NCBI GenBank assembly: GCA_025965975.1
Contig: JAOPVX010000028.1
Coordinates: 1 to 40,129, forward strand
Reading direction: 5' to 3'
DNA: 40,129 nt
DNA from: Mycobacterium sp.
GTDB lineage: Bacteria > Actinomycetota > Actinomycetes > Mycobacteriales > Mycobacteriaceae
The translations under genes and the position numbers were made by a program. Shown here in pieces: positions 11,667 through 40,129 of this stretch. Every line of letters starts with the position of its first letter. The first letter of the stretch is position 1. The notes beneath the pieces are model-generated. The model worked only from the letters and a program-made list of their open reading frames with translations. It did no database searches and was not told the DNA's origin.

Positions 11667-11957
11667 GTGGTGGTGCAACGGATCGGCGCCGAATTGCCCT
11701 CATTCAGCGCGGTATTGGGCCTGAAGAGTGCCGGGCGGGCACTGCGCGGTTCCGGGAGCTTTGGCAATCGTTTGCGTGATCGACGAGGCCATCAGCGGCA
11801 CACGCGCGCAGTCCCCGGCTGCCGATCGGACACCTGGGCGCTCAAGCGGCCCGCGGATGCTGGCCGTGGCCGTCGCCCCGGCTACCCGGGCGGCGAAATT
11901 GGGGTTCTCGAGCTTTCCACCAATACGCGAATCGCGTCGCTGATGAAGGGGCGGTGA
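11667..11957 (+). CDS. possible 96-residue leader protein of the FAD-enzyme operon
   Basis: AGGAGGTG immediately precedes GTG 11667 and GTG 11670, and the stop TGA (11955-11957) overlaps the GTG start of the FAD dehydrogenase (GTGA). Both are marks of a translated, coupled gene. Against this, the protein after residue 30 is Arg/Gly/Pro-rich with no family resemblance, as in a non-coding or frameshifted frame. It may be the decayed 5' gene of the operon. No function assigned. Confidence 0.25.
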   Translation: MVVQRIGAELPSFSAVLGLKSAGRALRGSGSFGNRLRDRRGHQRHTRAVPGCRSDTWALKRPADAGRGRRPGYPGGEIGVLELSTNTRIASLMKGR

Positions 11958-13381
11958 CCGACATGGATTTCGACGTCATCGTGGTCGGCGGCGGGGGCGC
12001 CGGTCTCGCGGCCGCAATCACGGCGGCGGAGGCGGGCGCCAGTGTGCTGATTGTGGAGTGGGCCGACCACCTCGGTGGAACGACGGAACTATCGGGCGGC
12101 GTCTACATGGCGGCAGGGACGGCTGCGCAGATCGAGCGCGGCTTCGCCGGAGACACTGTCGACGCCTTCTTCGACTATTTCATGACCTTCAACCGTTGGC
12201 ACACCGACGCGGCAACGACGAAACGGTTCTGTGACAGAGCGTTGCCCACGATGCAGTGGCTGATCGCCCACGGAGTCAGCTTTCCCGCTGAAGGTCTGTT
12301 CCGCGCGGGGCTGGAACCGGTTCCTCGGAGCCATTGCCCGCTCGGTGGAGGCAAAGCAATCGTCGGCGCGCTGAGCGCCGCCGCCGGCCGTCTGGGTGTC
12401 GACGTGGCGCTCGGCAAGAGGGTATCGGGCTTGAAGGTCGCGGCGGGCCGGGTATGTGGTGTGCAGGCGAACGGCGAGGAAGTGACCGGAGCATCGGTGA
12501 TCGTCACCACTGGCGGATTCAGTCAGAACTTCGATCTCGTCCGTCAGCACTTTCCGGACGCCCGGATGGGCGGCGACAATCTGTGGGCGCCGGGTGCTGC
12601 GACGAATCAGGGAGACGGCCTGACCCTTGGGGAGCAGGTCGGCGCTGCCACTGCGGGCCGCAACCACGGTGATCTTCTCTTGAGCGCGGGCTTGATCGAC
12701 CAACTCGAGCCTCAGATTCCTGGTTGGCTGGTGTTGGTCAATCAGGAGGGCCGCAGGTTCGTCGATGAACTCGCGCCGTACAACGTGATCACGCCGCTGA
12801 CCATGGCGAACGGGGGATCATGTTGGGCAGTTTTCGATGACGACGCGTGTCGCACTGCTGGCGGTGTGCGGGCTGGATCATGGGGTGCCGGGACATGGAC
12901 AGCGGACATGCTGGCCGCCGGTGTGACCACCGGACAGGTGCTGCGCGCGCCGACGGTTGGCGAACTTGCCGGCCTGATGCAGGTGCCCCCAGCAGTATTG
13001 CAGTCGACATTCGACCGGTACAACGCCGATTGCCAGGCGAAGATCGACAGCAAGTTCTTCAAAGACGCAACCGCGATGCGTTCGATCGAGAAGGCACCGT
13101 TCTACGCCGTGAAGCTCCGGCCTTCAGTTGTCGCCGTGACCGGGTATGGCCTGAGGATCGATGCTGACGCTCGCGTAATGGGGGCGGCAGACGATCACCC
13201 GATTCCAGGGCTTTATGCCGCCGGGGAGGCGACCGGAAACGTGTTGGGGCCCCAATACCTTGGCGGGGGACACGCCATCGGCAGCGCCCTGATCTTCGGA
13301 CGAATCGCCGCGGAGACGGCGATCGCCGACACCCACGCCATGTCTAGCTCGTTGAACATGTCTAGCTCGTTGAACGACTGA
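11954..13381 (+). CDS. FAD-dependent oxidoreductase (3-ketosteroid dehydrogenase/fumarate-reductase flavoprotein type)
   Basis: This 475-residue flavoprotein starts with the dinucleotide-binding motif VIVVGGGGAGLAAA (about 8-21), a conserved GGTTELSGG flavin contact (about 41-49), and ends with GLYAAGEATGN (about 419-429) and YLGGGHAIGSAL, all standard for the flavocytochrome-c/succinate-dehydrogenase-like superfamily. In actinobacterial catabolic clusters such proteins introduce C=C bonds next to carbonyls (KstD-like). Whether this one acts on a steroid, a cyclohexanone or an enoate cannot be decided. GTG 11954 overlaps the preceding small frame; a downstream ATG at 11963 is also possible. 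The C-terminus carries an 18-bp duplication that repeats MSSSLN. It is followed by the mycofactocin SDR, probably in the same operon. Confidence 0.85.
   Translation: MTDMDFDVIVVGGGGAGLAAAITAAEAGASVLIVEWADHLGGTTELSGGVYMAAGTAAQIERGFAGDTVDAFFDYFMTFNRWHTDAATTKRFCDRALPTMQWLIAHGVSFPAEGLFRAGLEPVPRSHCPLGGGKAIVGALSAAAGRLGVDVALGKRVSGLKVAAGRVCGVQANGEEVTGASVIVTTGGFSQNFDLVRQHFPDARMGGDNLWAPGAATNQGDGLTLGEQVGAATAGRNHGDLLLSAGLIDQLEPQIPGWLVLVNQEGRRFVDELAPYNVITPLTMANGGSCWAVFDDDACRTAGGVRAGSWGAGTWTADMLAAGVTTGQVLRAPTVGELAGLMQVPPAVLQSTFDRYNADCQAKIDSKFFKDATAMRSIEKAPFYAVKLRPSVVAVTGYGLRIDADARVMGAADDHPIPGLYAAGEATGNVLGPQYLGGGHAIGSALIFGRIAAETAIADTHAMSSSLNMSSSLND
13340..13375. repeat. 18-bp in-frame tandem duplication at the end of the FAD enzyme gene
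   Basis: ATGTCTAGCTCGTTGAAC occurs twice in tandem (13340-13357, 13358-13375) and adds MSSSLN twice before the final Asp and stop. It leaves the frame intact and lies after the conserved flavin-binding core. Confidence 0.9.
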
Positions 13382-13503
13382 CACAGCGCCAGCCAGATCG
13401 CTGGACGGGTGGTCCCACGCAGAAGGGCATGCCAGGTCAAGGCCACATTGAAAAGACGACATTTGCAACGGTATTGAATAGTCAACTATCGAGGAGCACG
13501 AAC

Positions 13504-14334
13504 ATGGGAAAACTTGACGGCAAGGTAGCCTTCATCACCGGCGCTGGCCGTGGTCAGGGCCGATCACACGCCATTCGTCTGGCAGAGGAGGGCGCAGACA
13601 TCATCGCGGTCGACATCTGCAAAGACGAACCGGCGCTGGCGTATTCGCTAGCGACGGAAGAGGACTTGGAGGCGACTGCGAAGCTGGTCGCTGATACCGG
13701 CCGGCGAATAGTTACACGCCAGACCGATGTTCGTGACATTGTCGGGCTACGCACGGCCTTTGACGAGGGTGTCGCCGAACTGGGCAGCATCGACATCGTC
13801 ATCGCGAACGCAGGCGTAGTCTTCTTCGATCAGGCCGAGGTGGATGATGATGCCGACGATCTGGCCTGGGAGATCGCAACTCGCGTCATGCTCGACGGCG
13901 TCCGCAACACAATCAAGGTAAGCCGCAAAGCGCTGGTCGACGGAGGCCGAGGCGGATCGATCGTCATCATCAGCTCGACGGCGGGATTGAAGGGCATGTC
14001 AGATGGCAGCGGTGGCGGTGACGGCTATACCGCCGCCAAGCATGGCGTCGTCGGCCTCATGCGAACGTATGCCAACCTGCTTGGGCCGCATGGAATCAGG
14101 GTCAACACTGTTCACCCGGCGGGCGTGCTCACGCCGATGATCATGAATGATGGATTTACGGCATGGACCGAATCGCATCGCGCGCTGGCCGATCGATTGA
14201 CGAATCTGTTGCCGGTGCAGGCGATGGAGCCGGTCGACATCAGCAACGCGGTCCTCTGGCTGGTCTCCGACGAAGGCAGATATGTCACCGGTGTGGCGCT
14301 GCCCGTCGACGCCGGTTTCACGGCGCGCGTCTAA
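13504..14334 (+). CDS. mycofactocin-coupled SDR family oxidoreductase
   Basis: This 276-residue short-chain dehydrogenase has GAGRGQG (13-19) for NAD binding, Ser157/158 (IISSTAG) and Tyr175-x3-Lys179 as catalytic residues. The opening MGKLDGKVAFITGA, the GRGQGRSHA signature, AVDIC after the second strand and the long acidic insert before TDVRD are the marks of the mycofactocin-coupled SDR family, whose NAD cofactor is thought not to leave the enzyme and to be re-oxidised through mycofactocin. The frame is open from 13429, but GAGGAGC precedes ATG 13504, and homologs start there. It probably oxidises a secondary alcohol intermediate and is probably co-transcribed with the FAD enzyme. It implies that the host makes mycofactocin. 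Confidence 0.92.
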   Translation: MGKLDGKVAFITGAGRGQGRSHAIRLAEEGADIIAVDICKDEPALAYSLATEEDLEATAKLVADTGRRIVTRQTDVRDIVGLRTAFDEGVAELGSIDIVIANAGVVFFDQAEVDDDADDLAWEIATRVMLDGVRNTIKVSRKALVDGGRGGSIVIISSTAGLKGMSDGSGGGDGYTAAKHGVVGLMRTYANLLGPHGIRVNTVHPAGVLTPMIMNDGFTAWTESHRALADRLTNLLPVQAMEPVDISNAVLWLVSDEGRYVTGVALPVDAGFTARV

Positions 14335-14821: not shown

Positions 14822-16255
14822 TCAAAGTCCGAGCGAGACGTATTTGGCCTCAACGTATTCGGCGACTCCGTACTTGCCGCCTTCACGTCCGTATCCGGAC
14901 ATCTTCATGCCCCCAAAGGGGACCTGTGCGGTCGACGGCGCGCCGTCGTTGACACCCACGACGCCATACTCCAGCGCTTCGATGACGCGGTGTAGCCGAC
15001 CGATGTCCCTGCCAAACGCGTAGGCGGCTAAACCGAACGGTGAACTGTTGGCGCGCTCAACGGCTTCCTCGATGGTCTGGAAGCTTGACACCCCAGCGAC
15101 CGGACCGAAGGTCTCTTCGGCGAACATCAGCATCTCGTCGGTCACATCAGCCAGCAACGTTGGCTGGTAGAAACGATTGCAGAACCCATCGCCGAAGCTC
15201 TGTAGCCGGCCGCCACAGATCAGTCGTGCACCGCGCGTGATGGCGTCGTCAACGTGTCGCTGAACTTTGGTGATCGCGGCGTCGTCGATCAGCGGGCCTA
15301 CATCTACTGGCCCATTCGCAGGACCGAGCTCGAGGCCCCGTATCGCCTCTGCGTATGACGCAAGGAATTCCTCGTAAATGCCGGCGGCGACATAGATCCG
15401 GTTGGCTGCGATGCAGGACTGGCCGTTGTTGCGGAACTTCGCGCGCAGGACGCCGGCGACCGCGACCGGCATTTCGGCGTCATCGAGGATGATGACGGGG
15501 GCATGCCCGCCCAGTTCTAGCGACAATCGCGTGACGTTCTGCGCCGACAGCGCAATCAGCTCCTGGCCGACCGCGGTCGATCCCGTGAACGAGACCTTCC
15601 GCACGCGCGCGTCGGCGAACAGCTCGCGTGCCACCCGCGCACCGGGGGCGGTCACGACGTTGAGGACTCCGGGTGGAAGGCCGGCTTCCAGACCGAGGCG
15701 ACCCAGTTCGATCGCCGTCAGCGGGGTCTGGGTGTCCGGCTTGACGACCTGAGTACAGCCAGCGGCCAGTGCAGGACCAACCTTGCGGGTGATCATCGCC
15801 AGCGGGAAATTCCACGGAGTGATCGCCGCCGTCACACCGACCGGATGGTACTGGACCATGATCCGCTTGTCGTAGCGCCATGACGGGAGCAATTCACCAT
15901 TTATGCGGGTCGCTTCCTCAGCCGACCAGGACAGAAAGGATCGGCCGTAGTCCACCTCGTTGCGGGCCTCCGACAGCGGCTTTCCGCTCTCACGGGAAAT
16001 CAGCTCCGCCAGATTCGGGGCCTCTCGGTCGACGATTCGGGCGAACCCGTCCAGCAGCGCACCCCGCTCATCTGCCATCCGTGCTCGCCATGCCGGTAAC
16101 GCTTGGGCTGCGGCGTCTATCGCCGCCCGGATGTCGGCGGCGGTGCACAGCGGAACCTCGCCGAGCACCTCGTCAGTTGATGCGTCGCGAACGGGCACCA
16201 CCCTGCCGTCAGCCGCATCGCGCCAGTGGGCGCCGATCAGGTTTCTGGTTTCCAT
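14822..16255 (-). CDS. NAD(P)-dependent aldehyde dehydrogenase
   Basis: This 477-residue ALDH-superfamily enzyme oxidises an aldehyde to an acid. The general-base Glu247 lies in LELGGHAP and the nucleophile Cys281 in NNGQSCIAANR, 34 residues apart as usual. The NAD-binding segment has PWNFPLAM and FTGSTAVGQEL. It resembles the succinate-semialdehyde/benzaldehyde dehydrogenase branch, but substrate choice cannot be read. The frame is open to 16294; I prefer ATG 16253-16255 (METRNLIGAHWRD) because CCGGAG precedes it and homology begins there. It is transcribed alone, divergent from the crotonase/acyl-CoA dehydrogenase operon. A second ALDH is encoded at 29970-31439, so the pathway probably releases two aldehydes or one gene is redundant. 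Confidence 0.92.
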   Translation of the reverse strand: METRNLIGAHWRDAADGRVVPVRDASTDEVLGEVPLCTAADIRAAIDAAAQALPAWRARMADERGALLDGFARIVDREAPNLAELISRESGKPLSEARNEVDYGRSFLSWSAEEATRINGELLPSWRYDKRIMVQYHPVGVTAAITPWNFPLAMITRKVGPALAAGCTQVVKPDTQTPLTAIELGRLGLEAGLPPGVLNVVTAPGARVARELFADARVRKVSFTGSTAVGQELIALSAQNVTRLSLELGGHAPVIILDDAEMPVAVAGVLRAKFRNNGQSCIAANRIYVAAGIYEEFLASYAEAIRGLELGPANGPVDVGPLIDDAAITKVQRHVDDAITRGARLICGGRLQSFGDGFCNRFYQPTLLADVTDEMLMFAEETFGPVAGVSSFQTIEEAVERANSSPFGLAAYAFGRDIGRLHRVIEALEYGVVGVNDGAPSTAQVPFGGMKMSGYGREGGKYGVAEYVEAKYVSLGL

Positions 16256-16500
16256 GCGATCTCCGGTCCATTGCGAGCCAAGGGTTTTGCCCACTTTCGG
16301 CGAAAGTGATCCTGATCTGCGGGCGTTATCGCACGCGTGACGGCGGTCCTATAACGCGGCGCGTAACGCTGCGTGAGCAGCCTGCGATGTGGGCGACGTT
16401 TCCGGTCGAAGCTTCGGTGGTCGAGACTGATTGCCGATTCGGTGACCCGCTAAGTCAAGCACGAGTCGTCTGGAATCACCGTGAGCAGTAGAAGGGCGCG
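16256..16500. promoter_or_regulatory. divergent promoter region, ALDH / crotonase operon
   Basis: This 245-bp region must contain both promoters. TAACGC recurs near 16352 and 16363. I see no strong palindrome. Confidence 0.4.
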
Positions 16501-17295
16501 ATGGAGTTCGACTATCTGGCTGTGGAATTGGTGGATTCGGTAGCGGTCATCACACTCGACCGGCCGCCGGTAAACGCCGTCAGTCAACAAATGTATGAAG
16601 ACATCCGGATCCTCTTCGGCCGTTTCGATGAGCTGGTCCCGGCCGCCAAGGCGGTAGTGCTGCGGGGTGCGGGCAAGCACTTCTGCGCGGGGAACGATCT
16701 CGAGGAGTTCATGACGCTCGACGAGACCAACGCCGCAGGGCGAATGCGGGTTGTCCGCGATGCGTTCGCGTCGATCTACGATTGCCCGGTTCCAGTGATC
16801 GGCGCGGTACACGGTGCGGCGCTGGGCACCGGGCTGGCGATCAGCGCATGTTGTGATCTGGTCGTGGCGGCGGACAGTGCGCGTTTCGGCACGCCCGAGG
16901 TCGGCGTCGGCGTGATGGGCGGCGCGCGCCACCTGGCCCGCCTCGTTCCGGCCCCGATTGTCCGGCTGATGTACTTCACCGCAGATCCGATGCCGGCGTT
17001 CGCGCTCGTTGGCTTCGGATCGGTCGTGGAGGTCGTGCCCGAGGCAGAATTGTTCGATCGCGCGATCGCGATTGCGTCTCGCGTCGCGCGGCACAGCCGA
17101 GCCGCGGTGCGCGAGGCGAAGGCAACTCTCAACGCGATCGAATCGATGGACCTCAAGTCCGGGTACGAGGTCGAACAGCGAGCTACCGGCCGCCTGGTTG
17201 CACATCCCGATGCCAAGGAGGCGCTGCAGGCCGTGCGCGAAGGCCGTCGACCCTTCTATGCGGACGACGGCCCGGCGCGGGTGAACGGGCAGTGA
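16501..17295 (+). CDS. crotonase-superfamily protein (enoyl-CoA hydratase/isomerase-like)
   Basis: This 264-residue protein has the crotonase fold: oxyanion-hole segments KHFCAGNDLEEF (about 60-71) and HGAALGTGLAISACCD (about 104-119), and FGTPEVGVG (about 129-137). Compared with rat enoyl-CoA hydratase, the second catalytic Glu (Glu164, in FGTPE) is present, but the first (Glu144) is replaced by Ala in GTGLAIS. That argues against simple hydration and for an isomerase, hydrolase or retro-Claisen role. It begins an operon: its stop TGA overlaps the start of the acyl-CoA dehydrogenase gene. ATG 16501 has AGTAGAAGGG upstream. Confidence 0.88.
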   Translation: MEFDYLAVELVDSVAVITLDRPPVNAVSQQMYEDIRILFGRFDELVPAAKAVVLRGAGKHFCAGNDLEEFMTLDETNAAGRMRVVRDAFASIYDCPVPVIGAVHGAALGTGLAISACCDLVVAADSARFGTPEVGVGVMGGARHLARLVPAPIVRLMYFTADPMPAFALVGFGSVVEVVPEAELFDRAIAIASRVARHSRAAVREAKATLNAIESMDLKSGYEVEQRATGRLVAHPDAKEALQAVREGRRPFYADDGPARVNGQ

Positions 17296-18452
17296 TGGAG
17301 ACCCCTGAGCTCGCGGCGTTCCGCACCGCCGTGCGGGCCTGGCTGGCATCGGTGGCGATCCCGGTGATCGCCGATGATCTTGCCTCGCGGTTCGTCGACC
17401 TTCGGGAATGGCAGAGGACACTGTATGACGCCGGATTCATTGGACTGACCTGGCCGAAGAGTTGGGGCGGCCGGGACCTGACCTATCGACATCAACGGAT
17501 CCTGAACACCGAATTGGTCCGCGCGCGGGCACCTCAGCCGATCGGGTTGATCGGCCTCGATGTCGTCGGACCGTCGATAGGCACGTTCGGAACGCCGCAA
17601 CATAGACATGACTTGCTTCCGCCACTGTTGTCGGGAGCACACATCTGGTGTCAGGGATTCTCCGAGCCGGGGGCCGGATCGGACCTCGCCGCGATCAGGA
17701 CGAGGGCTCAGCTCGTGGGCGACGAGTTCATCGTCGATGGGCAGAAGGTGTGGACGAGCTGGGCCTCGTTCGCCGACTGGTGTGCTCTGTTGGTTCGCAC
17801 TGAGACCGGCTCCACGCGACACCGTGGACTGAGCTATTTGCTCGTCGACATGCGCACGCCGGGGATCACCGTGCGGCCGTTGCGGCAAATGACGGGTGAG
17901 TCTGAGTTCGGCGAGGTCTTTTTCGACGACGTGCACGTGCCGGTCGCCAACCTCGTGGGGGCCCCCGGGCAGGGATGGGAGATAGCGATGGACACCCTTT
18001 CGCACGAGCGGGGCACGTTCGGCATGCGTCGGCAGGCCGAGATCAGCGGGCAGTTGTGGAGCGCGATCGATTCGCTGCGCTTGTATCAGGACACCGGCAC
18101 GTGTGTGCCCCCCAGCGTGGTCTCGGCGATCGGGCGTGCGTTGGTCGCAAACAAGATGCTGGAAGCCCAAGTGGAGGCCACCGTCGAGCGGGCAACTAGT
18201 GGCGGCGGCGCCTCGGCACTGGACTCGGTGGACAAGCTGATCCTCGCCGAATGCGAGCAGGAGATCTTCGGCGCGTTACGCGAGGTGGTAGGCCCGTTGC
18301 TCAACGACCTCGAAGGCGATGCCTGGCACGTTCGGTCGGCGGTCGTGGCCCATGATTACCTCTACGGCCGCGCCGCCTCGATCTACGGCGGAACCAGCCA
18401 GATCCAGCGCAACATCGTGGCCGAGCGGATGTTGGGACTGCCCCGTGGCTGA
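17295..18452 (+). CDS. acyl-CoA dehydrogenase, long subunit (FadE-like)
   Basis: This 385-residue flavoprotein introduces an alpha-beta double bond in an acyl-CoA. It has FSEPGAGSDLAAIRT and KVWTSWASFADW flavin/substrate motifs, and SIYGGTSQIQRNIVAERMLGLPRG near the C-terminus. In medium-chain enzymes the catalytic Glu sits in Y-E-G; here it is Y-G-G, so the base must lie elsewhere, as in other branches. The next gene is a shorter dehydrogenase overlapping by 8 bp, the arrangement of heteromeric (alpha2beta2) FadE pairs in actinobacterial steroid and bulky-acid degradation. ATG 17295 overlaps the crotonase stop; GTG 17292 is the alternative start. Confidence 0.92.
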   Translation: METPELAAFRTAVRAWLASVAIPVIADDLASRFVDLREWQRTLYDAGFIGLTWPKSWGGRDLTYRHQRILNTELVRARAPQPIGLIGLDVVGPSIGTFGTPQHRHDLLPPLLSGAHIWCQGFSEPGAGSDLAAIRTRAQLVGDEFIVDGQKVWTSWASFADWCALLVRTETGSTRHRGLSYLLVDMRTPGITVRPLRQMTGESEFGEVFFDDVHVPVANLVGAPGQGWEIAMDTLSHERGTFGMRRQAEISGQLWSAIDSLRLYQDTGTCVPPSVVSAIGRALVANKMLEAQVEATVERATSGGGASALDSVDKLILAECEQEIFGALREVVGPLLNDLEGDAWHVRSAVVAHDYLYGRAASIYGGTSQIQRNIVAERMLGLPRG

Positions 18453-19524
18453 GGCGGCATTTGACGACCACGATCTTGCGGACCTGCTCGCGACGATCGA
18501 TGCCACACTGAGCGCCCACTGGAACCCGGCCACAGCCGAGAATCCGGACGCCGTTTGGGCTCGGTTGCTCGACCTTGGCGTCACCGAGTTGATTGCGCCG
18601 GGCGGGCACTCGGGCATGGGCTTGCCGACAGAGATTCTCGTTGACGTGTTCCGGACCGCGAGCCGACACCTCGCGCCGGGCCCATGGCTCGAAGAAGCTT
18701 TTCTGCGGCCCTGGCTCGCCGACCACGGTTGGGTATCCCCGCGAGGGCCCGGCCAACAGCTCGCTCTCGTCGATGCCGCGGCAACCTTTGACTGGCGATC
18801 TTCGCGCGGCGAGATCCATTTCGATCCGGCGGGGCACACGTTGACTGGCGCCATCCACGGTGTCGCGCAGGCCCCCGCTGCAACAGCGTTGATCGTGATC
18901 GCTAGCAACACCCGCGAACCCTCCGCCGAGACCATCTGCGTCGTGCCGACGGCGGCGTCCGGAGTGGCGGTGCGTGCCACGGCCGCATTGGATCCCGGCT
19001 GCCCGATCGGCAGGGTGACCCTAACCAATGCCGTGCCCGAATTGGTGCTGGCCGAATCCCGTCCAGAAGCGATCGCCGAGCTGCGGGCATGGCTGCAGGT
19101 CCTCGTCGCCGCCGAATTGCTGGGCCTCGCGGAGGCGACCGTCGAGCTCGCACGAAGCCACGCCCTGCAGCGAACCCAGTTCGATCGCCCCATCGGGGGA
19201 TTCCAGGCGGTCAAACACCTGCTCGCAGACATGGCCTCGCGCTCGACCGCGCTGGCCAATTTGGTCAAGCTGACTACCTCGGAAATGGGAGACATGCCCG
19301 CTTCCGGCCGGACGGTGGCCGCGGCGACGCTAAAGGCACTCGCTGCCGACACTAGCTTGCGGATCTGTGAGCAGGCCCTGCAGGTGCACGGCGGAATCGG
19401 TTTCGTCGAGGAGCACGTGCTGCATCGCTATTTCAAGGCGACATTGCGCCGACACGGTCTTTACGGCACGCCGGCGGAGCTGTATGCCCGCATCGGGGCG
19501 TCGACGCTGGCGATGCCGGCATGA
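18445..19524 (+). CDS. acyl-CoA dehydrogenase, short subunit (FadE-like)
   Basis: This 359-residue partner of the preceding dehydrogenase has a poorly conserved first two thirds and a typical C-terminal helical domain: LGLAEATVELARSHALQRTQFDRPIGGFQAVKHLLADMA, then QALQVHGGIGFVEEHVLHRYFK. GTG 18445 overlaps the long subunit's stop by 8 bp (CCCCGTGGCTGAG), so the two are translationally coupled. In known heterotetramers (for example ChsE/FadE28-29 types) one subunit lacks the complete FAD or catalytic site; which one here cannot be settled by eye. It ends the operon, 50 bp before the convergent regulator gene. Confidence 0.9.
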   Translation: MAEAAFDDHDLADLLATIDATLSAHWNPATAENPDAVWARLLDLGVTELIAPGGHSGMGLPTEILVDVFRTASRHLAPGPWLEEAFLRPWLADHGWVSPRGPGQQLALVDAAATFDWRSSRGEIHFDPAGHTLTGAIHGVAQAPAATALIVIASNTREPSAETICVVPTAASGVAVRATAALDPGCPIGRVTLTNAVPELVLAESRPEAIAELRAWLQVLVAAELLGLAEATVELARSHALQRTQFDRPIGGFQAVKHLLADMASRSTALANLVKLTTSEMGDMPASGRTVAAATLKALAADTSLRICEQALQVHGGIGFVEEHVLHRYFKATLRRHGLYGTPAELYARIGASTLAMPA

Positions 19525-23859: not shown

Positions 23860-23904
23860 CGTCCCGGCGAGGTCACGTCGTCACCGGGCAAAGGAGTGAG
23901 GACA

Positions 23905-28149: not shown

Positions 28150-28190
28150 GCCGAGATATCTTTTCCCGCACTGCTGAAAGGAGGACGACG

Positions 28191-32467: not shown

Positions 32468-33597
32468 CGCGGCAGTCCCAACACACGTTCTCCGATGATG
32501 TTCTTGTGGATGTCGGTGGTGCCCCCGCCGATCGGAGCGCTGAATCGACGCAGCCAATCCTCGCCCCAGGGCGTCCATTCCAAGGCCTTGGGTCCCAGGA
32601 TGTCGATTGCCAACCGGCCAACGATGACCTCGAGTTGCGCGCTGAACGTTCGCGTGGCCGTGGTTTCCGCGCTGGGCCTTTCACCCTTCTTTGCAGCCGA
32701 CGCCTGAAAGTAGGCGGTAGATCGCAGGGCGGACGCCATGGCCCTGGCCTGCGCGAGCCGCTCGTAAAGTGTGTCGTCGTTGATCGCGCCGGTGAGCCGA
32801 GCATGCTCGATCAACTCGTCGACGAATACAATTTCGCCCAACCGTCGGTGCAGGAAACCGGTTCCACGTTCGGCGGCGAGCGTGGACATCGCCACGCTCC
32901 AGCCCTTGTTCACCGCACCGACCACATTCGTCACCGGGATGCGAACCTCGTCGTAAAAGACCTCGCAGTTGTGGGGGAACCCGTCAATGCTGGTGACCGG
33001 GCGTACGTCGATCCCAGGCAACCGCATGTCCACGATCACCCAGGTGATGCCCTTGTGTTTGGGTGCGTCGGGATCGGTGCGGACCAGCAACTCGCCGTAA
33101 TCGCACCACTCGCCGTATGAGGTCCATATCTTGGATCCGGTGACGACCAAGTCGTCGCCGTCGAGAACCGCGCGGGTACGCAGTGATGCCAGATCCGAGC
33201 CCGCGCCTGGTTCGGAGAAGCCCTGACACCATGGTGTCTGGCCGCGCAACATCATCGGCAAATAGAACTGCTTCTGAGCCTCGCTGCCGCACATGATCAA
33301 GGTGGGTCCGGCATGGTTGAGGGCGGTGCCGAAGACGCCCTGCCCGGGCGCTTTCGCGCGCACGAACTCCTCGTACCAGATCACCTGTTGAAGCGGGGAT
33401 AGCCCACGTCCGCCGTATTCCGGCTCCCAGTCGATGCCAGCCCATCCGCCGGTGAACTGTCGGTTCTGCCAAGCCATGTCGTATTCGCGCATCTGCGTTC
33501 CGTACGGGGGGCGCTGTTCGGTCGGAACATTCTCGGCCAGCCAGGTTCGCGCCTCCTCGCGAAAGGCCTTGAAGTCTCGGCTCGTCTGAAGGTCCAT
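32464..33597 (-). CDS. acyl-CoA dehydrogenase, long subunit (second FadE pair)
   Basis: This 377-residue flavoprotein has GFSEPGAGSDLASLRTRAV, GSKIWTSYGEWCDY and the closing SAPIGGGTTDIHKNIIGERVLGLPR. Again the residue that is Glu in medium-chain enzymes (Y-E-G) is Gly (IGGGTTDIHK), as in the first pair. With the following short subunit it should form a heteromeric enzyme for a bulky or branched acyl-CoA. ATG 33595-33597 (MDLQTSRDFKAFREEAR) is the start. It sits downstream of the DUF35/thiolase-like genes, a grouping seen in steroid side-chain operons. Confidence 0.92.
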   Translation of the reverse strand: MDLQTSRDFKAFREEARTWLAENVPTEQRPPYGTQMREYDMAWQNRQFTGGWAGIDWEPEYGGRGLSPLQQVIWYEEFVRAKAPGQGVFGTALNHAGPTLIMCGSEAQKQFYLPMMLRGQTPWCQGFSEPGAGSDLASLRTRAVLDGDDLVVTGSKIWTSYGEWCDYGELLVRTDPDAPKHKGITWVIVDMRLPGIDVRPVTSIDGFPHNCEVFYDEVRIPVTNVVGAVNKGWSVAMSTLAAERGTGFLHRRLGEIVFVDELIEHARLTGAINDDTLYERLAQARAMASALRSTAYFQASAAKKGERPSAETTATRTFSAQLEVIVGRLAIDILGPKALEWTPWGEDWLRRFSAPIGGGTTDIHKNIIGERVLGLPR

Positions 33598-33639: not shown

Positions 33640-34056
33640 TTAGGCGGGCTCGAATTGCAGTAGCGTCCACTCCGGCGTGACGTCCTGGTAGGCGACCTTG
33701 ACGCGTTGCCCGATCCGGACCGCCTCAGGACTGACATTCGTCATGCCTCCGATCATTCGGAAACCGTCATCCATCGCGACGTGGACGAGCGCGTACGGTG
33801 CGTCCTGCTGATAAGCAGAAGTCGGCGCCCGGCGAATGACGGTGTAGGTGTACACCTCGCCCGTCGGCCGGATGGGCGACCAACTGTAGTCGGGGGACAT
33901 GCACTTGCTGCAGATCTCCTTTGGCACATGGCGAAAGCTCTCGCAAGACGTGCAGCGCTGCACTGTGATCCGGTGATCTCGCAGCGAATCCCAGAACGGA
34001 CGGTGCCACGAAGGAATGCCCTCGGGAAGTAACTTTGCGTATTCGCCTTCAGTCAT
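33640..34056 (-). CDS. DUF35 (Zn-ribbon plus OB-fold) protein, thiolase partner
   Basis: This 138-residue protein has a zinc ribbon with Cys35, Cys38, Cys49 and Cys52 (CTSC, CSKC), followed by an OB fold (IRPTGEVYTYTVIRRA, PYALVHVAMDDGFRMIGG). Such proteins are obligate partners of thiolase-like enzymes, as ChsH2 C-terminal DUF35 with Ltp2 in cholesterol degradation and IpfE with IpfD in ibuprofen degradation. ATG 34054-34056 (MTEGEYAKLLPEGIP) lies 4 bp after the stop of the thiolase-like gene, so the two are co-translated. It probably binds acyl-CoA and channels it to the thiolase-like active site. Confidence 0.92.
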   Translation of the reverse strand: MTEGEYAKLLPEGIPSWHRPFWDSLRDHRITVQRCTSCESFRHVPKEICSKCMSPDYSWSPIRPTGEVYTYTVIRRAPTSAYQQDAPYALVHVAMDDGFRMIGGMTNVSPEAVRIGQRVKVAYQDVTPEWTLLQFEPA

Positions 34057-34060
34057 GGGA

Positions 34061-35251
34061 TCACACCTGTCCGAGAATGGCCGAGAAGTTGTTCTGCATC
34101 GCGCCGCCGACACCGCTGAGGTATCCGTATCTCGCGCCGTCGACCTGGCGCACCCCCGCGCTACCCCGCAGTTGCTCGACCAGCTCGATCAGCGTGAACA
34201 GACCACACATACCGGCATGGCTGAACGAGAGGAAGCCACCAGAGGTGTTGGTGGGCAGCCGCCCGCCGATCCGCAGTGCGCCGTTTTCCACGAACGCCCC
34301 GCCTTCACCTACCTTGCAGAATCCTGCGGACTCCACGCCGAACACCACGTTGATGGTGAAGTGATCGGCGATGCCGGCGACGTCGATCGCCTCGCGCGAG
34401 ACGCCCGAATGGGAGAAGGCGGTGTCGGCGGCCAGCTGGGCGGCGGGAAACTCTGCCAACGATGGACTCGAGTTCGCGTCGATGTGGCTGTGCCCTTCCC
34501 CGTATCCCAGCAGTCCGATCGGTACGTGGCGGCGGGCATCGCGCACAGCGGAGGCGGCCGTGACGACAATGGCTCCGGCGCCCTGATTGATCGCACAGCA
34601 GTCGAGCAGATGCAGCGGGTCGGCGATCATGCGGGAGGTGACGACTTCGTCGATCGTCAGTTCGCCGCGGTGGCCGTTGACCGACAGCGGGTGCAGCGTT
34701 GCGGCATAGCGCTGGGCGACCGCGATCTCGGCGAGCTGCTCAGCGGTAGTGCCGAATTCATACATATGGCGGGTGGCGAGCACGGAGTAGTCGGACACCC
34801 GAGTGGTGCCGTAGACATATTCATAGGGACCGCTGTTCATTGCCATGGCCGCGACGGCCTGGTCGCGATCGAGGCTGCCGGAACCCTCGGGTCGGCCTGC
34901 GATGGCCGTTGCGATGAGGACGGCTTCGGCCAAGCCCGTGGAGACGGCGTGCACGGCGAGATTGAGCCCAGCGGCGGCACCGGCCGCGCCAATCGAGCTT
35001 GCCGCATGGAATCGCAACGGCTTGCCCAGCAGATCGTAACCGAGGGCGGCGCCCGGAAGCTTCGACCGGATTCCCACACCCGGCGGCCCGTCATAAACCA
35101 GGCCGTCGATGTCGCTGAGATCAACGCCGGCGTCAGCGCAGGCGCCCTTCGCGCATTCAAACCACACGTCAGCCTGAATGCGGTCGGACAAATCGCCTTG
35201 CTTGGTCTGATGGACACCGGCAATGGCTGCCTCCCGGTGCGCTTGCGGCAT
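34061..35251 (-). CDS. thiolase-like protein without catalytic Cys (Ltp2/SCPx-type, probable retro-aldolase)
   Basis: This 396-residue thiolase fold protein starts at ATG 35249-35251 with GAGGAGGT before it. The region holding the nucleophilic Cys of thiolases reads HAASSIGAAGAAAGLNLA (82-99), with Ala/Ser and no Cys. The second catalytic Cys-Gly-Gly-Gly is GVGGAM (380-385). The C-terminal NTSGGFLSFSHAGMCG (335-350) keeps His345 of the G-H-P motif. Loss of both cysteines is the pattern of Ltp2-type aldolases, which cleave beta-hydroxy-acyl-CoA without CoA attack. The DUF35 partner gene is 4 bp downstream. It is probably not a true thiolase. It begins the minus-strand operon. Confidence 0.9.
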   Translation of the reverse strand: MPQAHREAAIAGVHQTKQGDLSDRIQADVWFECAKGACADAGVDLSDIDGLVYDGPPGVGIRSKLPGAALGYDLLGKPLRFHAASSIGAAGAAAGLNLAVHAVSTGLAEAVLIATAIAGRPEGSGSLDRDQAVAAMAMNSGPYEYVYGTTRVSDYSVLATRHMYEFGTTAEQLAEIAVAQRYAATLHPLSVNGHRGELTIDEVVTSRMIADPLHLLDCCAINQGAGAIVVTAASAVRDARRHVPIGLLGYGEGHSHIDANSSPSLAEFPAAQLAADTAFSHSGVSREAIDVAGIADHFTINVVFGVESAGFCKVGEGGAFVENGALRIGGRLPTNTSGGFLSFSHAGMCGLFTLIELVEQLRGSAGVRQVDGARYGYLSGVGGAMQNNFSAILGQV

Positions 35252-35440
35252 GCCTACCTCCTCGTAAGACCGGTCAGCAAGGTGATGTTGCCTCCGGTAG
35301 CCGTCCTGAATGAGTCGACACCGACGCCACCGCGCCGGCCTCGTCGAATGGCCGGCGAAGCACCGTTCGCGGATTCCCAACCGCACGGGTCCTGCGCAGA
35401 GCCAAGGGATGGGCCCACGGCCGGGTCGGACAGAAGCTCG

Positions 35441-35457
35441 TACACAACGTGTGTACC
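35441..35457. promoter_or_regulatory. perfect 7-bp inverted repeat, candidate operator
   Basis: GTACACA-ACG-TGTGTAC is a perfect palindrome with a 3-nt spacer beside the AT-rich block of the divergent region. Its size and symmetry suit a dimeric helix-turn-helix repressor or activator. The protein that binds it is not known and is not obviously encoded next to it. Confidence 0.55.
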
Positions 35458-35510
35458 ATCTATCGATAATGTATTGCAAGTCGTTGGTGATACATATATA
35501 GTCGGCATTT

Positions 35511-35525
35511 AACCAGATACTGGTT
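35511..35525. promoter_or_regulatory. 6-bp inverted repeat, second candidate operator
   Basis: AACCAG-ATA-CTGGTT is a perfect 15-nt palindrome 54 bp from the first one. A further pair ATGTAT (35469-35474) and ATACAT (35490-35495) lies between them. The spacing of symmetric sites is consistent with two operators flanking promoters. Confidence 0.45.
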
Positions 35526-35660: not shown

Positions 35661-36491
35661 ATGTCGGACATACTCATCGAGAAGCAGCGCCACACGACGA
35701 TTTTCACGCTCAACAAACCGGAGCGCATGAATTCGTTGAGTGCCTCCATGCTGGCGGCCCTCGCCGCGGGCATCCGGGAGTTCGAGAGCGATCCCGACCA
35801 GTACGTGGCGATAATTACCGGTGCAGGCGACAAGGCGTTCTGCGCGGGCGGCGATCTCAAGGAGATGGCGTCGAACGCCGCCGACGGGTCGCGCCTGCCG
35901 CTTTCCCGGAACCCCGACATCGCCGGCATCGCCGCGTGCGACAAGGTCACGATCGCTGCCGTCAATGGTCTGGCCGTAGCCGGCGGGCTCGAGGTCGCCA
36001 TCAGCTGCGATATCCGTATTGCCGCGGACAACGCGTGGTTCGGAGTGTTTGAAGTCAAGCACGGGATCATGGCTGGAGTCGCAGCCAATGTGCTTCCGCG
36101 GCTCATGCCAATCGGAGCGGTGATGGACCTGATGCTCAGCGGTGACCGACTGACCGCCGAGCTGGCACATCAATGGGGATTGGTGCAGCGGGTCGTCACA
36201 CGCGACAGACTGCTGGAGACCGCGATCGCCAAGGCGGACATGATCGCTCAAAACTCGCAAGCCGCCGTCTGGGGCACCAAGCAAGTGATCAAGTCGTGGC
36301 GCAACGCCTCGATGGCCGAGCAACAGCGCTACTACGAAGCGGTGCAGCACCGAGTCCTTCTCTCTGGCGACGTGTTCGAAGGCCCGCGCGCGTTCGCCGA
36401 AAAACGGCGCCCGGTTTACCGCAATGGATGGCCGACGCCCACCAACGTTCCAATGGAGGCGATGCGGGATGACAAGACCGTCACCGCGTGA
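35661..36491 (+). CDS. enoyl-CoA hydratase/isomerase family protein
   Basis: This 276-residue crotonase has both glutamates aligned with rat hydratase Glu144 and Glu164: AVAGGLEVAISCD and FGVFEVKHG. The oxyanion-hole segment is DKAFCAGGDLKEM. This fits hydration of an alpha,beta-unsaturated acyl-CoA, unlike the crotonase at 16501 that lacks the first Glu. The frame opens at TTG 35640, but AGAAGGG lies just before ATG 35661 (MSDILIEKQRHTT), which is preferred. It is the first gene of the plus-strand block, followed by a 417-bp gap before the ferredoxin. Confidence 0.92.
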   Translation: MSDILIEKQRHTTIFTLNKPERMNSLSASMLAALAAGIREFESDPDQYVAIITGAGDKAFCAGGDLKEMASNAADGSRLPLSRNPDIAGIAACDKVTIAAVNGLAVAGGLEVAISCDIRIAADNAWFGVFEVKHGIMAGVAANVLPRLMPIGAVMDLMLSGDRLTAELAHQWGLVQRVVTRDRLLETAIAKADMIAQNSQAAVWGTKQVIKSWRNASMAEQQRYYEAVQHRVLLSGDVFEGPRAFAEKRRPVYRNGWPTPTNVPMEAMRDDKTVTA

Positions 36492-36908
36492 CCCCTTGGG
36501 TGCGTGCACGATTGGCGACCCGGTCTACTCCGGGGTCATTGAGGCTGGTCGTGTTTCCGTGGGCGAGACGCCACGCACCGGAGGCCGGGAGTCGCTCGAT
36601 CGCGTACCCGCCCAGTGTGATCGCCCGGGCTCGCCGCCGGCGCGACGCCACACCTCCTCTGCTTCGAACTCGCCGATCCGTCGCCGCGCCGGCCATGCAG
36701 TTGGGCAATCCGCGGACGTGACCGTTCATGTCGAATGTCTTGGGCTCCGCCGGTTAACGGTCGCCGTAACGACGCCGTCGTTTACTCGTCACGATGGATG
36801 CCGCTTGGGCATCAGTCGGTGGCCGCTGGCAGGCGGACTCTCGCTCGGCGGTGGCCAGCGGGGCACCACGCGGTTGCTCTCCTACGCGAACTGAGGTGAT
36901 GAGGCTTC
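36492..36908. other. gap with possible NTF2-like remnant on the minus strand
   Basis: The region has no intact gene. A minus-strand frame from about 36729 to 36481 ends in GYAIERLPASGAWRLAHGNTT, which resembles the C-terminal strands of SnoaL/NTF2-like proteins (Y-x-x-x-R--G-WR-x-H). Its N-terminal half is Arg-rich and unlike the family, so this is probably the eroded tail of a lost gene rather than a working one. Confidence 0.3.
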
Positions 36909-37109
36909 ATGCCAATTGTCAGCGTTGACGCCAAATCGTGTGTCGGCCACGCCATCTGCACGATCCTGGACTCTGCGGTGTTCAATCTGGACGACGAAGG
37001 CGGTGTCGCGCACGTCAATGCCGATGCCGCGGCAGCCGCGTCCCCGTCCGCGATGAAGGACATCGCCGCAGCGTGCCCTGCCGGCGCGATCACGGTCGAA
37101 AACACTTGA
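36909..37109 (+). CDS. [3Fe-4S]-type ferredoxin
   Basis: This 66-residue ferredoxin has Cys11, Cys17 and Cys56-Pro57. The position of the missing fourth ligand is His14 (C-x2-H-x2-C), so a 3Fe-4S cluster, or a 4Fe-4S with His ligation, is expected. Mycobacterial ferredoxins of this kind serve P450s and Rieske oxygenases. Its place 16 bases before the extradiol frame and upstream of the Rieske alpha gene suggests it is the electron donor of that oxygenase. A reductase is not in the window. ATG 36909 has GAGGTGATGAGG upstream. Confidence 0.92.
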   Translation: MPIVSVDAKSCVGHAICTILDSAVFNLDDEGGVAHVNADAAAAASPSAMKDIAAACPAGAITVENT

Positions 37110-37163
37110 TCGCATTAGCTTTTGGCCGACGACATCAACGGCGTTACTGGATGGAAGGGATCG

Positions 37164-38126
37164 ATGGGTACTTCAGCAGTGAACGAGCTGGGGATTGCCG
37201 GCCTAGGCTACCTCGGCATCGACTCGACGGATCCCGACCAGTGGATTCCCTTCGGCCAGGACGTTCTCGGAATGCAAGCCACGGTCGCGGATGACACTGT
37301 GCGACTGAAGATGGACGTTCGTGTCTATCGGGTGGCGATTCATCGCGCAGATCGCGACGGTCTCGGTTACGTCGGCTGGGAGATGATCAGCCCGGCGGCA
37401 TTGGATTCGGCGGCCGAGCATCTTTCCCGATCTGGGGTCGCCGTGAAACGCGCTGACCGCCAGTGGGCTCTCGAGCGTGGGGTTGCCGACTTGGTGTCGT
37501 TCACCGATCCGTCCGGTGTGGCCACGGAACTGTTCGTGGGGGCACGGACGGAGGAGGCGCGCGAGTTCCGGTCACCGACCGGCGCCAGGTTCGTGACCGG
37601 CGACCAAGGCGCGGGGCACATCACCGTGGTGTGCTCCCAATACGACGAGAATTTCAAGTTCTATTCCGAGACGCTCAAGTTCGGAATCAGCGACTTCCTC
37701 GTGGGCGAACCGCTCCAGGTGGCGTTCATGGGTTGCAATCGACGCCACCACAGCATCGCGTTGATCGACGGAAAGGATGCGGCGCCCTCCGCGCTTGGCC
37801 ATTTCATGGTCGAGGTGGATGACCTAACCACGCTGGGTAAGGCCTATGACCGATGCGTAGACGGCGCGGCGCCCATTGAAATCACCATGGGCAAGCACTG
37901 GAACGATTGGATGACCTCTTTCTATGTGAAGTCACCGTCGGGCTTCACCATCGAGTATGGCTGGAACGGTCGTACGGTCGACCGTGCGACCTGGTCTGCG
38001 ATCCAGGGCAATGGAGAGATCAGCGTCTGGGGGCATCGGCCCACCTCGCCGGAAGCGGCGCGAACCCTCGGTCGCAAGACGTGGATCAAGGACTTCGCTG
38101 CGATGAAGGGGCAGGGCGCCCAATGA
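37164..38126 (+). CDS. type I extradiol ring-cleavage dioxygenase (VOC family)
   Basis: This 320-residue two-domain enzyme has Fe(II) ligands His152 (GAGHITVV), His213 (LGHFMVEVDD) and Glu264 (GFTIEYG), spaced as in BphC (146, 210, 260). The active-site His of BphC aligns with the RRHHSIAL segment and the Tyr with SFYVKSPSG. It cleaves a catechol next to its hydroxyls (meta cleavage), with BphC/HsaC-type substrates most likely. GGAAGGG lies before ATG 37164; the frame also opens at TTG 37122. It is in the same operon as the ferredoxin and Rieske genes. Confidence 0.95.
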   Translation: MGTSAVNELGIAGLGYLGIDSTDPDQWIPFGQDVLGMQATVADDTVRLKMDVRVYRVAIHRADRDGLGYVGWEMISPAALDSAAEHLSRSGVAVKRADRQWALERGVADLVSFTDPSGVATELFVGARTEEAREFRSPTGARFVTGDQGAGHITVVCSQYDENFKFYSETLKFGISDFLVGEPLQVAFMGCNRRHHSIALIDGKDAAPSALGHFMVEVDDLTTLGKAYDRCVDGAAPIEITMGKHWNDWMTSFYVKSPSGFTIEYGWNGRTVDRATWSAIQGNGEISVWGHRPTSPEAARTLGRKTWIKDFAAMKGQGAQ

Positions 38127-38185
38127 CCATCGTGGCGAATGGCCGACTCGAACATCGATCCGTCAGCGACCTCGGGGAGTAAGAC

Positions 38186-38539
38186 ATGTCAGGCGTGCGA
38201 TTGTTAGCCCAATTCAGGCTGAAGCCCGGCACGACGCGCGAATTCAGCAGTTCGTGGCAGGACAGGCTCAGAAGTGTGCGGACCGAGGACGGCTGTCTTC
38301 AGTACGAGCTCTTCACCAGCCTGGACGATCCGTGTCGGGTTGCCATGGTCGAAGCCTGGGGCAGTGTGGAGGCGTTCACGGCGCACACTCAGCGCGATGC
38401 TGCCCACAATACCAGGCCAACCGATGCGCTGCCCGGCGGCGAGCTCATCGCCGACGAACCGTTCACGGTCGAAATATATTGGGATAAAACATATTACGAT
38501 TACGACCCGGTCAACGACACGTTCGTCGTGGTCACCTAG
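38186..38539 (+). CDS. ABM-domain putative quinol monooxygenase
   Basis: This 117-residue ferredoxin-like dimer (antibiotic biosynthesis monooxygenase fold) has RLLAQFRLKPGTTREFSSSW, EDGCLQYELFTSLDDP and VEAWGSVEAFTAHTQ. Related cofactor-free proteins oxidise or degrade quinols (YgiN-type) or transform aromatic intermediates. In this operon it might remove toxic quinones from catechols. A 30-residue C-terminal extension with IYWDKTYYDYDPVNDT is unusual for the family. ATG 38186 follows GGGGAGTAAGAC. Confidence 0.82.
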   Translation: MSGVRLLAQFRLKPGTTREFSSSWQDRLRSVRTEDGCLQYELFTSLDDPCRVAMVEAWGSVEAFTAHTQRDAAHNTRPTDALPGGELIADEPFTVEIYWDKTYYDYDPVNDTFVVVT

Positions 38540-38585
38540 TCACGCACATTTCCCAGTCGGGTGGATCGGCGATCGTGGAGGTTAA

Positions 38586-39875
38586 ATGACAACGTCGGAG
38601 TTTGTGGCAGATCAAGAGATCTGCGACCTCGTCCAGCCTGAGCAGGGCAGGGTGCACAGCCGCGTCTACACCGATCCCGCTGTCTTCGATCGCGAATTGA
38701 AACACATCTTCTACTCGTCGTGGGTGTTCGTCGCCCACGAGAGTGAGGTGGCCACCGTCGGCGATTACAAGACGACCTACATAGGCCGGGTACCGGTAAT
38801 CGTCACCCGCGGCGACGATATGGCACTGCGGGTGCTTGTCAACCGCTGTGCTCATCGAGGCACGACGGTCTGCCAGCGGGAGCTCGGCAACGCAAATTTC
38901 TTCAAGTGTGAATATCACGGGTGGGTGTATGACAATGCGGGTGAACTGAAGGGGATAACGCTACGTAGCGGCTTTCAGGACGGTGAGATCCCTGCTGGTC
39001 TGGGGCTGGATCGCGCGCCACGCGTCGACGTCTATCAAGGATGCATCTTCGCTTCACTTACCGCCGAGGGCCCGGGGCTGCGCGAAACCTTGGGCGGGGC
39101 AGCCACATATCTCGATGAGTGGGCACAACGGTCACCGAACGGACGGCTCGTCGTCGCCGGGGTCACCCGTCAGCGATACGAGGGAAACTGGAAGCTGCAA
39201 GTCGAGGGCAGCAACGAGCGCTACCACGCCGAATTTCTCCATCGCGTTGACACCCAGATGAGCGCGCGCCTCGCTGCTCAACAGGGGACCATGGTCACCG
39301 CGAAGCGAACGCCGGTCGCCGCAGACGAACGAGGCATCGATTTCGGCAACGGTCACAGCTTGATGGAGATTCCGCCGGCGTATGGAACCGTTCAACTTGC
39401 GAAGTATCCGGCAGAACTCGTCGCGCAGGCAGTAAAGGACCTGGACACATCGGATCCGACGGACATTCTCGGACCGTATTGGCGCATGGTGGTGTTTCCC
39501 AACGTGGCCTTCGCGTCAACCCATTTCCGGGTGATCCGTCCGATCGACGTCAATCTCACCGAGGTCTCGCAGTACTACGTCGACGTGTCCGACTGGCCGG
39601 AATCGGCGAACCTGATCCGCAAGCGCGAGGAGGAAAGCTTCTACGGTGCAGCAGGCTTCGGTGCACCGGACGATTTCGAAATGTTCACCAGAATCCAGCG
39701 CGGCCTTGCTGCCAACGACTGGCCGGGCGCCAACCCGTGGGTGCTCTTCAAACGCGAGGTCACGACCGAGCGTATCGACGAGTCAGGAACTCGATACGCC
39801 CACGCCGCGAGCGAAATTGAGCAGCGCGCAATGTATTACGCATGGCGCGAGCTCATGGGATCGAAGAAGGACTGA
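38586..39875 (+). CDS. Rieske aromatic ring-hydroxylating dioxygenase, alpha subunit
   Basis: This 429-residue catalytic subunit cis-dihydroxylates an aromatic ring. The Rieske 2Fe-2S ligands are Cys88, His90, Cys108 and His111 (CAHRG, CEYHGW). The mononuclear iron ligands are His214 and His219 (ERYHAEFLH) and Asp362 or Asp363 (GAPDDFEMF). NWKLQVEGSNERYH has the spacing of the benzoate/toluate (BenA/XylX) group; the bridging Asp of that group is Glu211 here, a rare substitution. The beta-subunit gene follows 6 bp later, giving an alpha-beta type. GGAGGTTAA precedes ATG 38586. The ferredoxin at 36909 is the probable electron source. Confidence 0.95.
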   Translation: MTTSEFVADQEICDLVQPEQGRVHSRVYTDPAVFDRELKHIFYSSWVFVAHESEVATVGDYKTTYIGRVPVIVTRGDDMALRVLVNRCAHRGTTVCQRELGNANFFKCEYHGWVYDNAGELKGITLRSGFQDGEIPAGLGLDRAPRVDVYQGCIFASLTAEGPGLRETLGGAATYLDEWAQRSPNGRLVVAGVTRQRYEGNWKLQVEGSNERYHAEFLHRVDTQMSARLAAQQGTMVTAKRTPVAADERGIDFGNGHSLMEIPPAYGTVQLAKYPAELVAQAVKDLDTSDPTDILGPYWRMVVFPNVAFASTHFRVIRPIDVNLTEVSQYYVDVSDWPESANLIRKREEESFYGAAGFGAPDDFEMFTRIQRGLAANDWPGANPWVLFKREVTTERIDESGTRYAHAASEIEQRAMYYAWRELMGSKKD

Positions 39876-39881
39876 GGCGTG

Positions 39882-40129
39882 ATGACAGGACGCGAGCTAA
39901 CCGCCGACGTCTCCTTAGACATCGGCTTGGCAGGGGAACTTCTCACTCGTGAAGCCGAACTGTTGGATTCCGGGTGCCTCGACGAGTGGTTGGCCATAGG
40001 GACCGCCGACATGCGGTACCGGGTGCCGAAGCCGACCGCATTGCTCAACGACCGCATTGACATCATCAACGATCAGCGCGCCGACCTAGTTGAGCGGGTG
40101 TGGCGAATCCAGAACAGCGGATTGAACCA
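39882..40129 (+). CDS. Rieske dioxygenase beta subunit (partial, runs off the window)
   Basis: The first 82 complete codons are present. MTGRELTADVSLDIGLAGELL, then TREAELLDSGCLDEWLAIGTADMRY and VERVWRIQN match the N-terminal helices and first strand of the NTF2-like small subunits of ring-hydroxylating dioxygenases (E-A-x-L-L-D-x6-W-x-L; R-V-x-R). This subunit is structural. ATG 39882 lies 6 bp after the alpha-subunit stop; GTG 39879 is an alternative in the same frame. The gene is cut by the window edge, not broken. Confidence 0.88.
   Translation, partial: MTGRELTADVSLDIGLAGELLTREAELLDSGCLDEWLAIGTADMRYRVPKPTALLNDRIDIINDQRADLVERVWRIQNSGLN

Follow-up and report, generated by a model that had tools for sequence, protein, structure and literature searches.

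What does a mycobacterium degrade with a locus in which genes for side-chain acyl-CoA chemistry stand next to genes for ring dioxygenation and meta-cleavage, and by which route? The locus occupies positions 11954-40129 of contig JAOPVX010000028.1 (C153 here) of the Mycobacterium sp. assembly GCA_025965975.1, a 7.44 Mb genome in 449 contigs with 93.4% completeness and 4.6% contamination; by the window we mean the whole stretch of 40,129 nucleotides. The original prediction, made from the letters of this DNA, listed a CoA ligase, two FadE pairs, two crotonases, a Cys-less thiolase with a DUF35 partner, a Rieske alpha/beta system with ferredoxin, an extradiol dioxygenase, a DapA-like aldolase, two aldehyde dehydrogenases (ALDH) and an alcohol dehydrogenase (ADH). 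All of them were found in the region when gene families were assigned with Pfam and NCBIfam profiles plus direct reading of the sequence (start codons within longer open reading frames, ORFs, were placed by eye), and by gene content the three kinds of chemistry do share one region. Absent from that list were an ornithine-cyclodeaminase/mu-crystallin (OCD) family gene, an FAD_binding_2 flavoprotein, a short-chain dehydrogenase (SDR), an alpha/beta hydrolase, a carboxymuconolactone decarboxylase-family (CMD) protein, SnoaL and ABM proteins and a BTAD regulator. The OCD gene changes the picture, in that the DapA-like protein belongs to an OCD-linked family of its own and is not NahE-like. On balance, these mycobacterial genes probably make up a catabolic supercluster whose substrate would be a hydrophobic carboxylic acid with a ring, resembling a terpenoid, a steroid or an aryl- or cycloalkyl-alkanoate. 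Its side chain would be removed aldolytically, and the ring attacked by dioxygenation and meta-cleavage. Its new part is the DapA-OCD pair, which is widely shared and partly stands beside ring-cleavage genes.

The DapA-like gene (26613-27623, + strand) encodes, by Pfam, a member of the dihydrodipicolinate synthase (DHDPS) superfamily with the TIM barrel and invariant Schiff-base lysine of a class I aldolase or lyase; this residue, Lys180, is the same in all 31 sequences aligned. The OCD gene (22870-23859, + strand) is the sole OCD-family match in this genome. Its product scores 187.8 bits on the Pfam family profile, and its Arg41, Arg52, Lys67, Arg104 and Asp242 do not vary among 22 aligned sequences; the roles of these Lys, Arg and Asp residues are assumed here. 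Loci were compared for the best 80 of 260 DapA relatives, several of them near-identical, and 77 of the 80 have an OCD gene on the same strand within 6 kb, in 58 cases less than 500 bp away. The same linkage is seen for none of seven other DHDPS-family genes taken as a control, whose loci extend no more than about 1.5 kb to either side. Distances among the DapA proteins and among their OCD partners correlate (rho 0.31 over 41 thinned loci, with none of 1000 shuffles as high), and the linkage spans Actinomycetota, Bacillota, Pseudomonadota, Binatota and Myxococcota. Matches to the DapA-like protein better than 1e-100 are confined to 2 of 61 genomes, its own and that of Mycobacterium pinniadriaticum. 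A canonical DapA or N-acetylneuraminate lyase was considered and rejected, the protein reaching 40.8 bits as a single sequence and 47 bits as a profile against solved structures and missing the cut-offs of all seven NCBIfam models that it matched.

How often does the pair lie beside ring-cleavage genes? A Rieske alpha gene is close to the DapA-like gene in 13 of the 80 loci by tblastn, and five near-identical Binatia-type loci have the fixed order BphC-RieA-RieB-SDR-HpaB-DapA-OCD. In a Roseomonas and a Bradyrhizobium plasmid an OCD-DapA-ALDH group is close to genes for an FAD-dependent oxidoreductase and VOC proteins. The linkage to ring cleavage is nevertheless partial, because oxygenase families were recognised in only 33 of the 80 loci, a count that is a lower bound; 25 of the loci are shorter than 18 kb. 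The family scan of neighbouring proteins covered 106 of 126 in 13 loci, those of L049, L081 and three others being left out, with 25 of the 99 families listed.

No description of an OCD-DapA pair in aromatic ring cleavage was found in the portions of the open-access literature that were accessible, subscription journals lying mostly outside the search. In the same literature the terms 'ornithine cyclodeaminase' and 'extradiol' co-occur only in PMC13254512, where, in the accessible part, OCD serves merely as an example; that part also reports a Rhodococcus glutamate dehydrogenase that reductively aminates an extradiol product. In hydroxyproline breakdown, according to an excerpt of PMC4113996, OCD and DHDPS enzymes act on ketimines. 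Taking the ketimine enzymes and the amination of the extradiol product as precedents, one may imagine the two proteins as a general module for a nitrogen-assisted lower route, an idea to which we give little credence. In such a route, OCD would take the alpha-keto acid from ring fission through an imine or amino-acid intermediate (dihydropyridine- or tetrahydropicolinate-like), which the DapA-like enzyme would then cut or deaminate, either replacing the hydratase and aldolase steps or rescuing dead-end pyridines formed with ammonia. A role for the OCD family in aromatic breakdown, if true, would explain many operons now labelled only 'dihydrodipicolinate synthase family / ornithine cyclodeaminase family'.

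Hydroxyproline catabolism itself offers a likeness in superfamilies: the excerpt of PMC4113996 describes a DHDPS-family Pyr4H2C deaminase, an OCD-family Pyr2C reductase and an ALDH. Genomes link these three superfamilies there as they do here, the difference being that the window-type pair is partly linked to Rieske and extradiol genes. This pathway was rejected for the present genome, since no match to the proline racemase family was found here or in M. pinniadriaticum. Proline racemase exceeded its cut-off in 9 of 24 genomes, including 2 of 14 from the broader DapA group of the window and 7 of 8 with other OCD-linked loci, so that the latter may serve hydroxyproline breakdown. Flavonoid clusters (fde/ifc), compared by description only, were likewise set aside, as the accessible part of the ifc paper names no OCD-DapA pair.

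The side-chain genes form a tight run on the minus strand (35251-28815): the thiolase (34061-35251), its DUF35/ChsH2-type zinc-ribbon and OB-fold partner (33640-34056, start by eye), the first and second subunits of FadE pair 2 (32464-33597 and 31490-32467, the latter with its start by eye), ALDH2 of the SSADH subfamily (29970-31439) and a zinc ADH (28815-29936). The thiolase, assigned from profiles and alignments, is Cys-less as claimed, the nucleophile position not being Cys when it is aligned to Cys-type thiolases, and is a candidate retro-aldolase; its second and third best solved relatives are the lipid-transfer-type chains 9myr and 6ok1. For FadE the search of solved structures covered the first subunit of pair 2, which is of the steroid type: its closest relatives are Tcur3483 and 4x28 (9e-53 to 5e-51), which we take to be steroid enzymes, followed by isovaleryl-CoA dehydrogenase at 1.5e-29. 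Because the thiolase, DUF35 protein, FadE pair, ALDH2 and ADH lie in one tight run, they look like the set expected for one aldolytic side-chain round, that is dehydrogenation, hydration, retro-aldol cleavage and aldehyde oxidation. Close copies of the core thiolase are rare: of 297 genomes of the genus, its own included, only that of M. pinniadriaticum has one (77% identity, the next being 41%), and of 394 genomes sampled across the class its own alone gave a match at 1e-100. A different arrangement of FadE units was seen in a Pseudonocardia metagenome-assembled genome (MAG), where L041:14771-17128 (minus strand) encodes a 784-residue protein with two acyl-CoA dehydrogenase units, as if a FadE pair had been fused.

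The ring genes end the window on the plus strand (35661-40129). After crotonase 2 (35661-36491) come a single-cluster ferredoxin of 66 residues, recognised by eye from its motif CVGHAIC ... ACP (CxxHxxC...CP) only (36909-37109), a type I extradiol dioxygenase of BphC/HsaC-like kind (37164-38126), an ABM-domain protein (38186-38539), the Rieske alpha subunit (38586-39875) and the first 82 residues of the beta subunit (39882-40129; Ring_hydroxyl_B 27.8 bits, cut-off 27), which the contig end cuts. The alpha subunit keeps the Rieske motif and, in an alignment with NdoB, the His, His and Asp at the iron-ligand positions; we assume the iron-ligand and bridging roles of its residues. Among solved structures its best match is 3-phenylpropionate dioxygenase (3e-48). 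The extradiol enzyme, when aligned with NahC, retains the metal-ligand pattern; it lies below the cut-offs of all four NCBIfam models matched, scoring better on the BphC equivalog (259 bits, cut-off 366) than on the HsaC equivalog (234.8 bits, cut-off 450).

Contig C323 of this genome seems to carry the catabolic region on beyond the contig end, together with an mce-type operon. Its first 429 bases (C323:1-429) form a gapless alignment of 93.9% identity with the end of the window (39701-40129), as though strain variation had broken the assembly at this point, the overlap not proving adjacency. By Pfam, C323 carries a complete Rieske beta subunit (L147:182-700), two FMO-like flavoproteins, which we guess to be of Baeyer-Villiger type, an SDR, an ALDH, a MaoC hydratase, a second thiolase, and SnoaL, FAH and VOC proteins; a DUF35 protein was found by BLAST. 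It also holds two CoA ligases, two MlaE permeases, MlaD/Mce proteins and an MMPL protein, and four of the scanned Mce proteins match MlaD, one of them below the cut-off. In one ORF of this contig (L148:1908-3554) a mce-type permease (MlaE) and an ABC ATPase domain are joined. The FMO-like oxygenases and the mce-type operon, together with the FadE relatives, fit a hydrophobic ring-bearing acid. The original interpretation holds in outline, an aryl- or cyclo-alkanoic acid being one candidate class of substrate.

From the gene content, its conservation, the residue patterns and the DapA-OCD linkage we infer the reactions, their order and the class of substrate as follows. The acid would be imported by the mce-type operon of C323, activated to its CoA ester and dehydrogenated at the alpha,beta position by the steroid-type FadE pair. 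A crotonase (or MaoC) would next add water, and the Cys-less thiolase/DUF35 pair would release acetyl- or propionyl-CoA in a retro-aldol step. The resulting aldehyde would be oxidised by ALDH2/ADH; if a ketone arises instead, the FMO-like enzymes, which may be of Baeyer-Villiger type, would oxidise it. The ring would undergo Rieske dioxygenation, SDR dehydrogenation and extradiol cleavage, after which the DapA-like class I aldolase, with the OCD-family enzyme, would convert the ring-fission alpha-keto acid into two products, a small keto acid and an aldehyde, the latter being oxidised by an ALDH. Ibuprofen degradation is known to pair aldolytic side-chain removal with ring dioxygenation, and the same pairing has been suggested for resin acids; the present cluster would extend this logic to mycobacteria.

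The gene set appears to be more than chance, because the same core recurs in M. pinniadriaticum CVI_P4. Contig 34 of that strain bears a diverged and otherwise uncharacterised cluster with most of the core and the same type of regulator. Identity to the window is 77% for the thiolase, 75% for ALDH2, 68% for crotonase 2, 55% for DapA, 52% for DUF35 and 49% for OCD, and 38% for BphC, 37% for the regulator and 35% for Rieske alpha. It differs in having extra P450-like genes and an IS110-like transposase, both recognised by eye. A Bacillus holds part of the set, namely SDR, Rieske alpha and beta, DapA, OCD, ALDH, thiolase and DUF35 genes, with a VOC-like gene seen by eye.

No characterised cluster with the same exact set was found, in agreement with the original prediction, few known clusters being comparable by sequence. 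The best candidate for an alternative within a single known scheme is an ibuprofen-type route, in which the Rieske enzyme would dihydroxylate the CoA ester beside the side chain, the thiolase/DUF35 pair would deacylate it directly to a catechol, BphC would cleave the ring and the FadE pairs would serve something else. The order of steps is that given in the accessible part of PMC9195938, which together with enzyme class was used to assign the ipf gene names. Like ipfABDEF of Rhizorhabdus wittichii MPO218 (pIBU218, NZ_CP059320), the window has a CoA ligase, a thiolase, a DUF35/OB-fold partner, Rieske alpha and beta subunits and a nearby bphC, with homologues of all five ipf classes at 26-35% identity and of bphC at 36%, the DUF35 and beta matches covering only 76 and 57 residues. 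The proposed likeness to ipf stands for the enzyme classes, but not beyond them: the identities are at family and not ortholog level, the contiguous ipfFEDBA order is not kept, and the thiolase and DUF35 genes are tightly linked to a FadE pair and not to the Rieske genes. In addition, the ipf gene table has no acyl-CoA dehydrogenase pair, compared with two in the window, and no OCD or DapA relative was found on the three quarters of pIBU218 covered. We regard this route as unlikely. A steroid or bile-acid pathway, with Ltp2/ChsH2, FadE pairs, an HsaC-like extradiol enzyme and mce import, shares the steroid-type FadE relatives and a Cys-less lipid-transfer-type thiolase with DUF35; we take FadE26-27/ChsE4-E5 and Ltp2-ChsH2 to be the side-chain counterparts. 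The mce-type operon of C323 and a flavoprotein of the KstD superfamily would also agree with it. Against it, of the genes in the window, which were the ones scored, the extradiol enzyme falls far short of the HsaC cut-off and the flavoprotein reaches 179.6 bits on the KstD model against a cut-off of 789. The alpha/beta Rieske system and the DapA-OCD pair of the window are extra, and to our knowledge steroid catabolism uses neither, which leaves this pathway improbable. The dit cluster for abietane resin acids in Pseudomonas abietaniphila and Paraburkholderia xenovorans could be likened by description only: the accessible parts of PMC13063091 and PMC10710418 describe a cluster that has dioxygenases for ring hydroxylation and for ring cleavage as well as a putative sterol-carrier-like protein. 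A difference is that no P450 family was found by Pfam among the scanned ORFs of the window.

Alternatively, there may be no single pathway, the region being an island of independent catabolic modules side by side, which we think rather unlikely. Blocks on both strands, two FadE pairs and two ALDHs would be expected of an island, and the modules look as if exchanged because the Rieske and BphC proteins of M. pinniadriaticum are far less identical (35-38%) than its thiolase, ALDH2 and crotonase (68-77%). However, the same modules stand together in that second species, and part of them in a Bacillus. Least probable is a polycyclic aromatic hydrocarbon (PAH)-type pathway (nah/phd) with the DapA-like protein as hydratase-aldolase. 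The Rieske alpha subunit is 30% identical to its nah counterpart and the extradiol enzyme 34% to NahC, but a search with the profile of the DapA-like family gives no match to NahE at E<=10, and the aldolase sits in the OCD-linked family, so that the PhdG/J-type reading first proposed appears ruled out on sequence, a matter that the fold does not decide. Furthermore, M. pinniadriaticum carries on contig 34 a NahE-type aldolase (L150:6594-7586, minus strand; 41% identical to NahE) besides the OCD-linked one, which shows that the two coexist, and tblastn searches with both NahE-type proteins gave no match in the window or C323.

Several observations weigh against a single supercluster for a ring-bearing acid. 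As many as 47 of the 80 loci lack a recognised member of the seven clustered oxygenase and ring-cleavage families, and the closest DapA relative, in the Pseudonocardia MAG (75%), has no OCD gene in its 21 kb. Before its YH motif the Rieske alpha subunit has Glu in place of the usual bridging Asp, which is present in NdoB and all seven of the further relatives aligned, and this substitution leaves the activity of the subunit uncertain. Carnitine monooxygenase is a natural case of Glu at this position. The FAD flavoprotein, CoA ligase, extradiol dioxygenase and thiolase each score below the cut-off of every NCBIfam model listed, and for this reason are given no exact function. Finally, the catabolic blocks are split over both strands, and the join to C323 rests on a 429-bp overlap at 93.9%, not 100%.

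The remaining genes of the region begin with a plus-strand run (11954-14334) of the FAD_binding_2 flavoprotein (11954-13381; flavocytochrome c/KstD/ChcC superfamily by Pfam, below the cut-offs of the 25 NCBIfam models listed) and the SDR (13429-14334, Pfam), followed on the minus strand by ALDH1 (14822-16294, Pfam). A second plus-strand run (16501-19524) consists of crotonase 1 (16501-17295; Pfam, NCBIfam) and FadE pair 1, with a first subunit of three ACAD domains (17292-18452) and a second subunit (18445-19524) whose start was placed by eye within ORF 18319-19524, both by Pfam. Between this pair and the OCD run lies the BTAD-type regulator of 1042 residues on the minus strand (19575-22703). 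The plus-strand run from 22870 to 28589 contains, besides the OCD and DapA-like genes, an S15/CocE-like alpha/beta hydrolase (23896-24870; below the cut-off of the NCBIfam UilS lactonase model), the acyl-CoA ligase (24880-26523), for which the top NCBIfam model is cyclohexanecarboxylate-CoA ligase TIGR03208 (462 bits, cut-off 792), and the CMD (27631-28149) and SnoaL-like (28191-28589) proteins, all assigned by Pfam. Neither of the plus-strand ORFs 36424-36894 and 34016-35512 matched a Pfam family, and both are probably spurious.

The left 10.7 kb of the window has matches, in separate stretches, in 56 of 61 related genomes. Those listed outside its own genome are about 66-83% identical, with the top score in the same genus and matches in other genera of the order as well. 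These matches make a mycobacterial origin of the contig most likely, or failing that an origin elsewhere in the order. Within this flank, ORF 4305-5588 joins the C-terminal part of a catalase (profile positions 191-363 of 383) to a guanylate cyclase domain, and a SIR2_2-domain protein (8673-9602) adjoins a RibD_C-domain gene and a TetR regulator.

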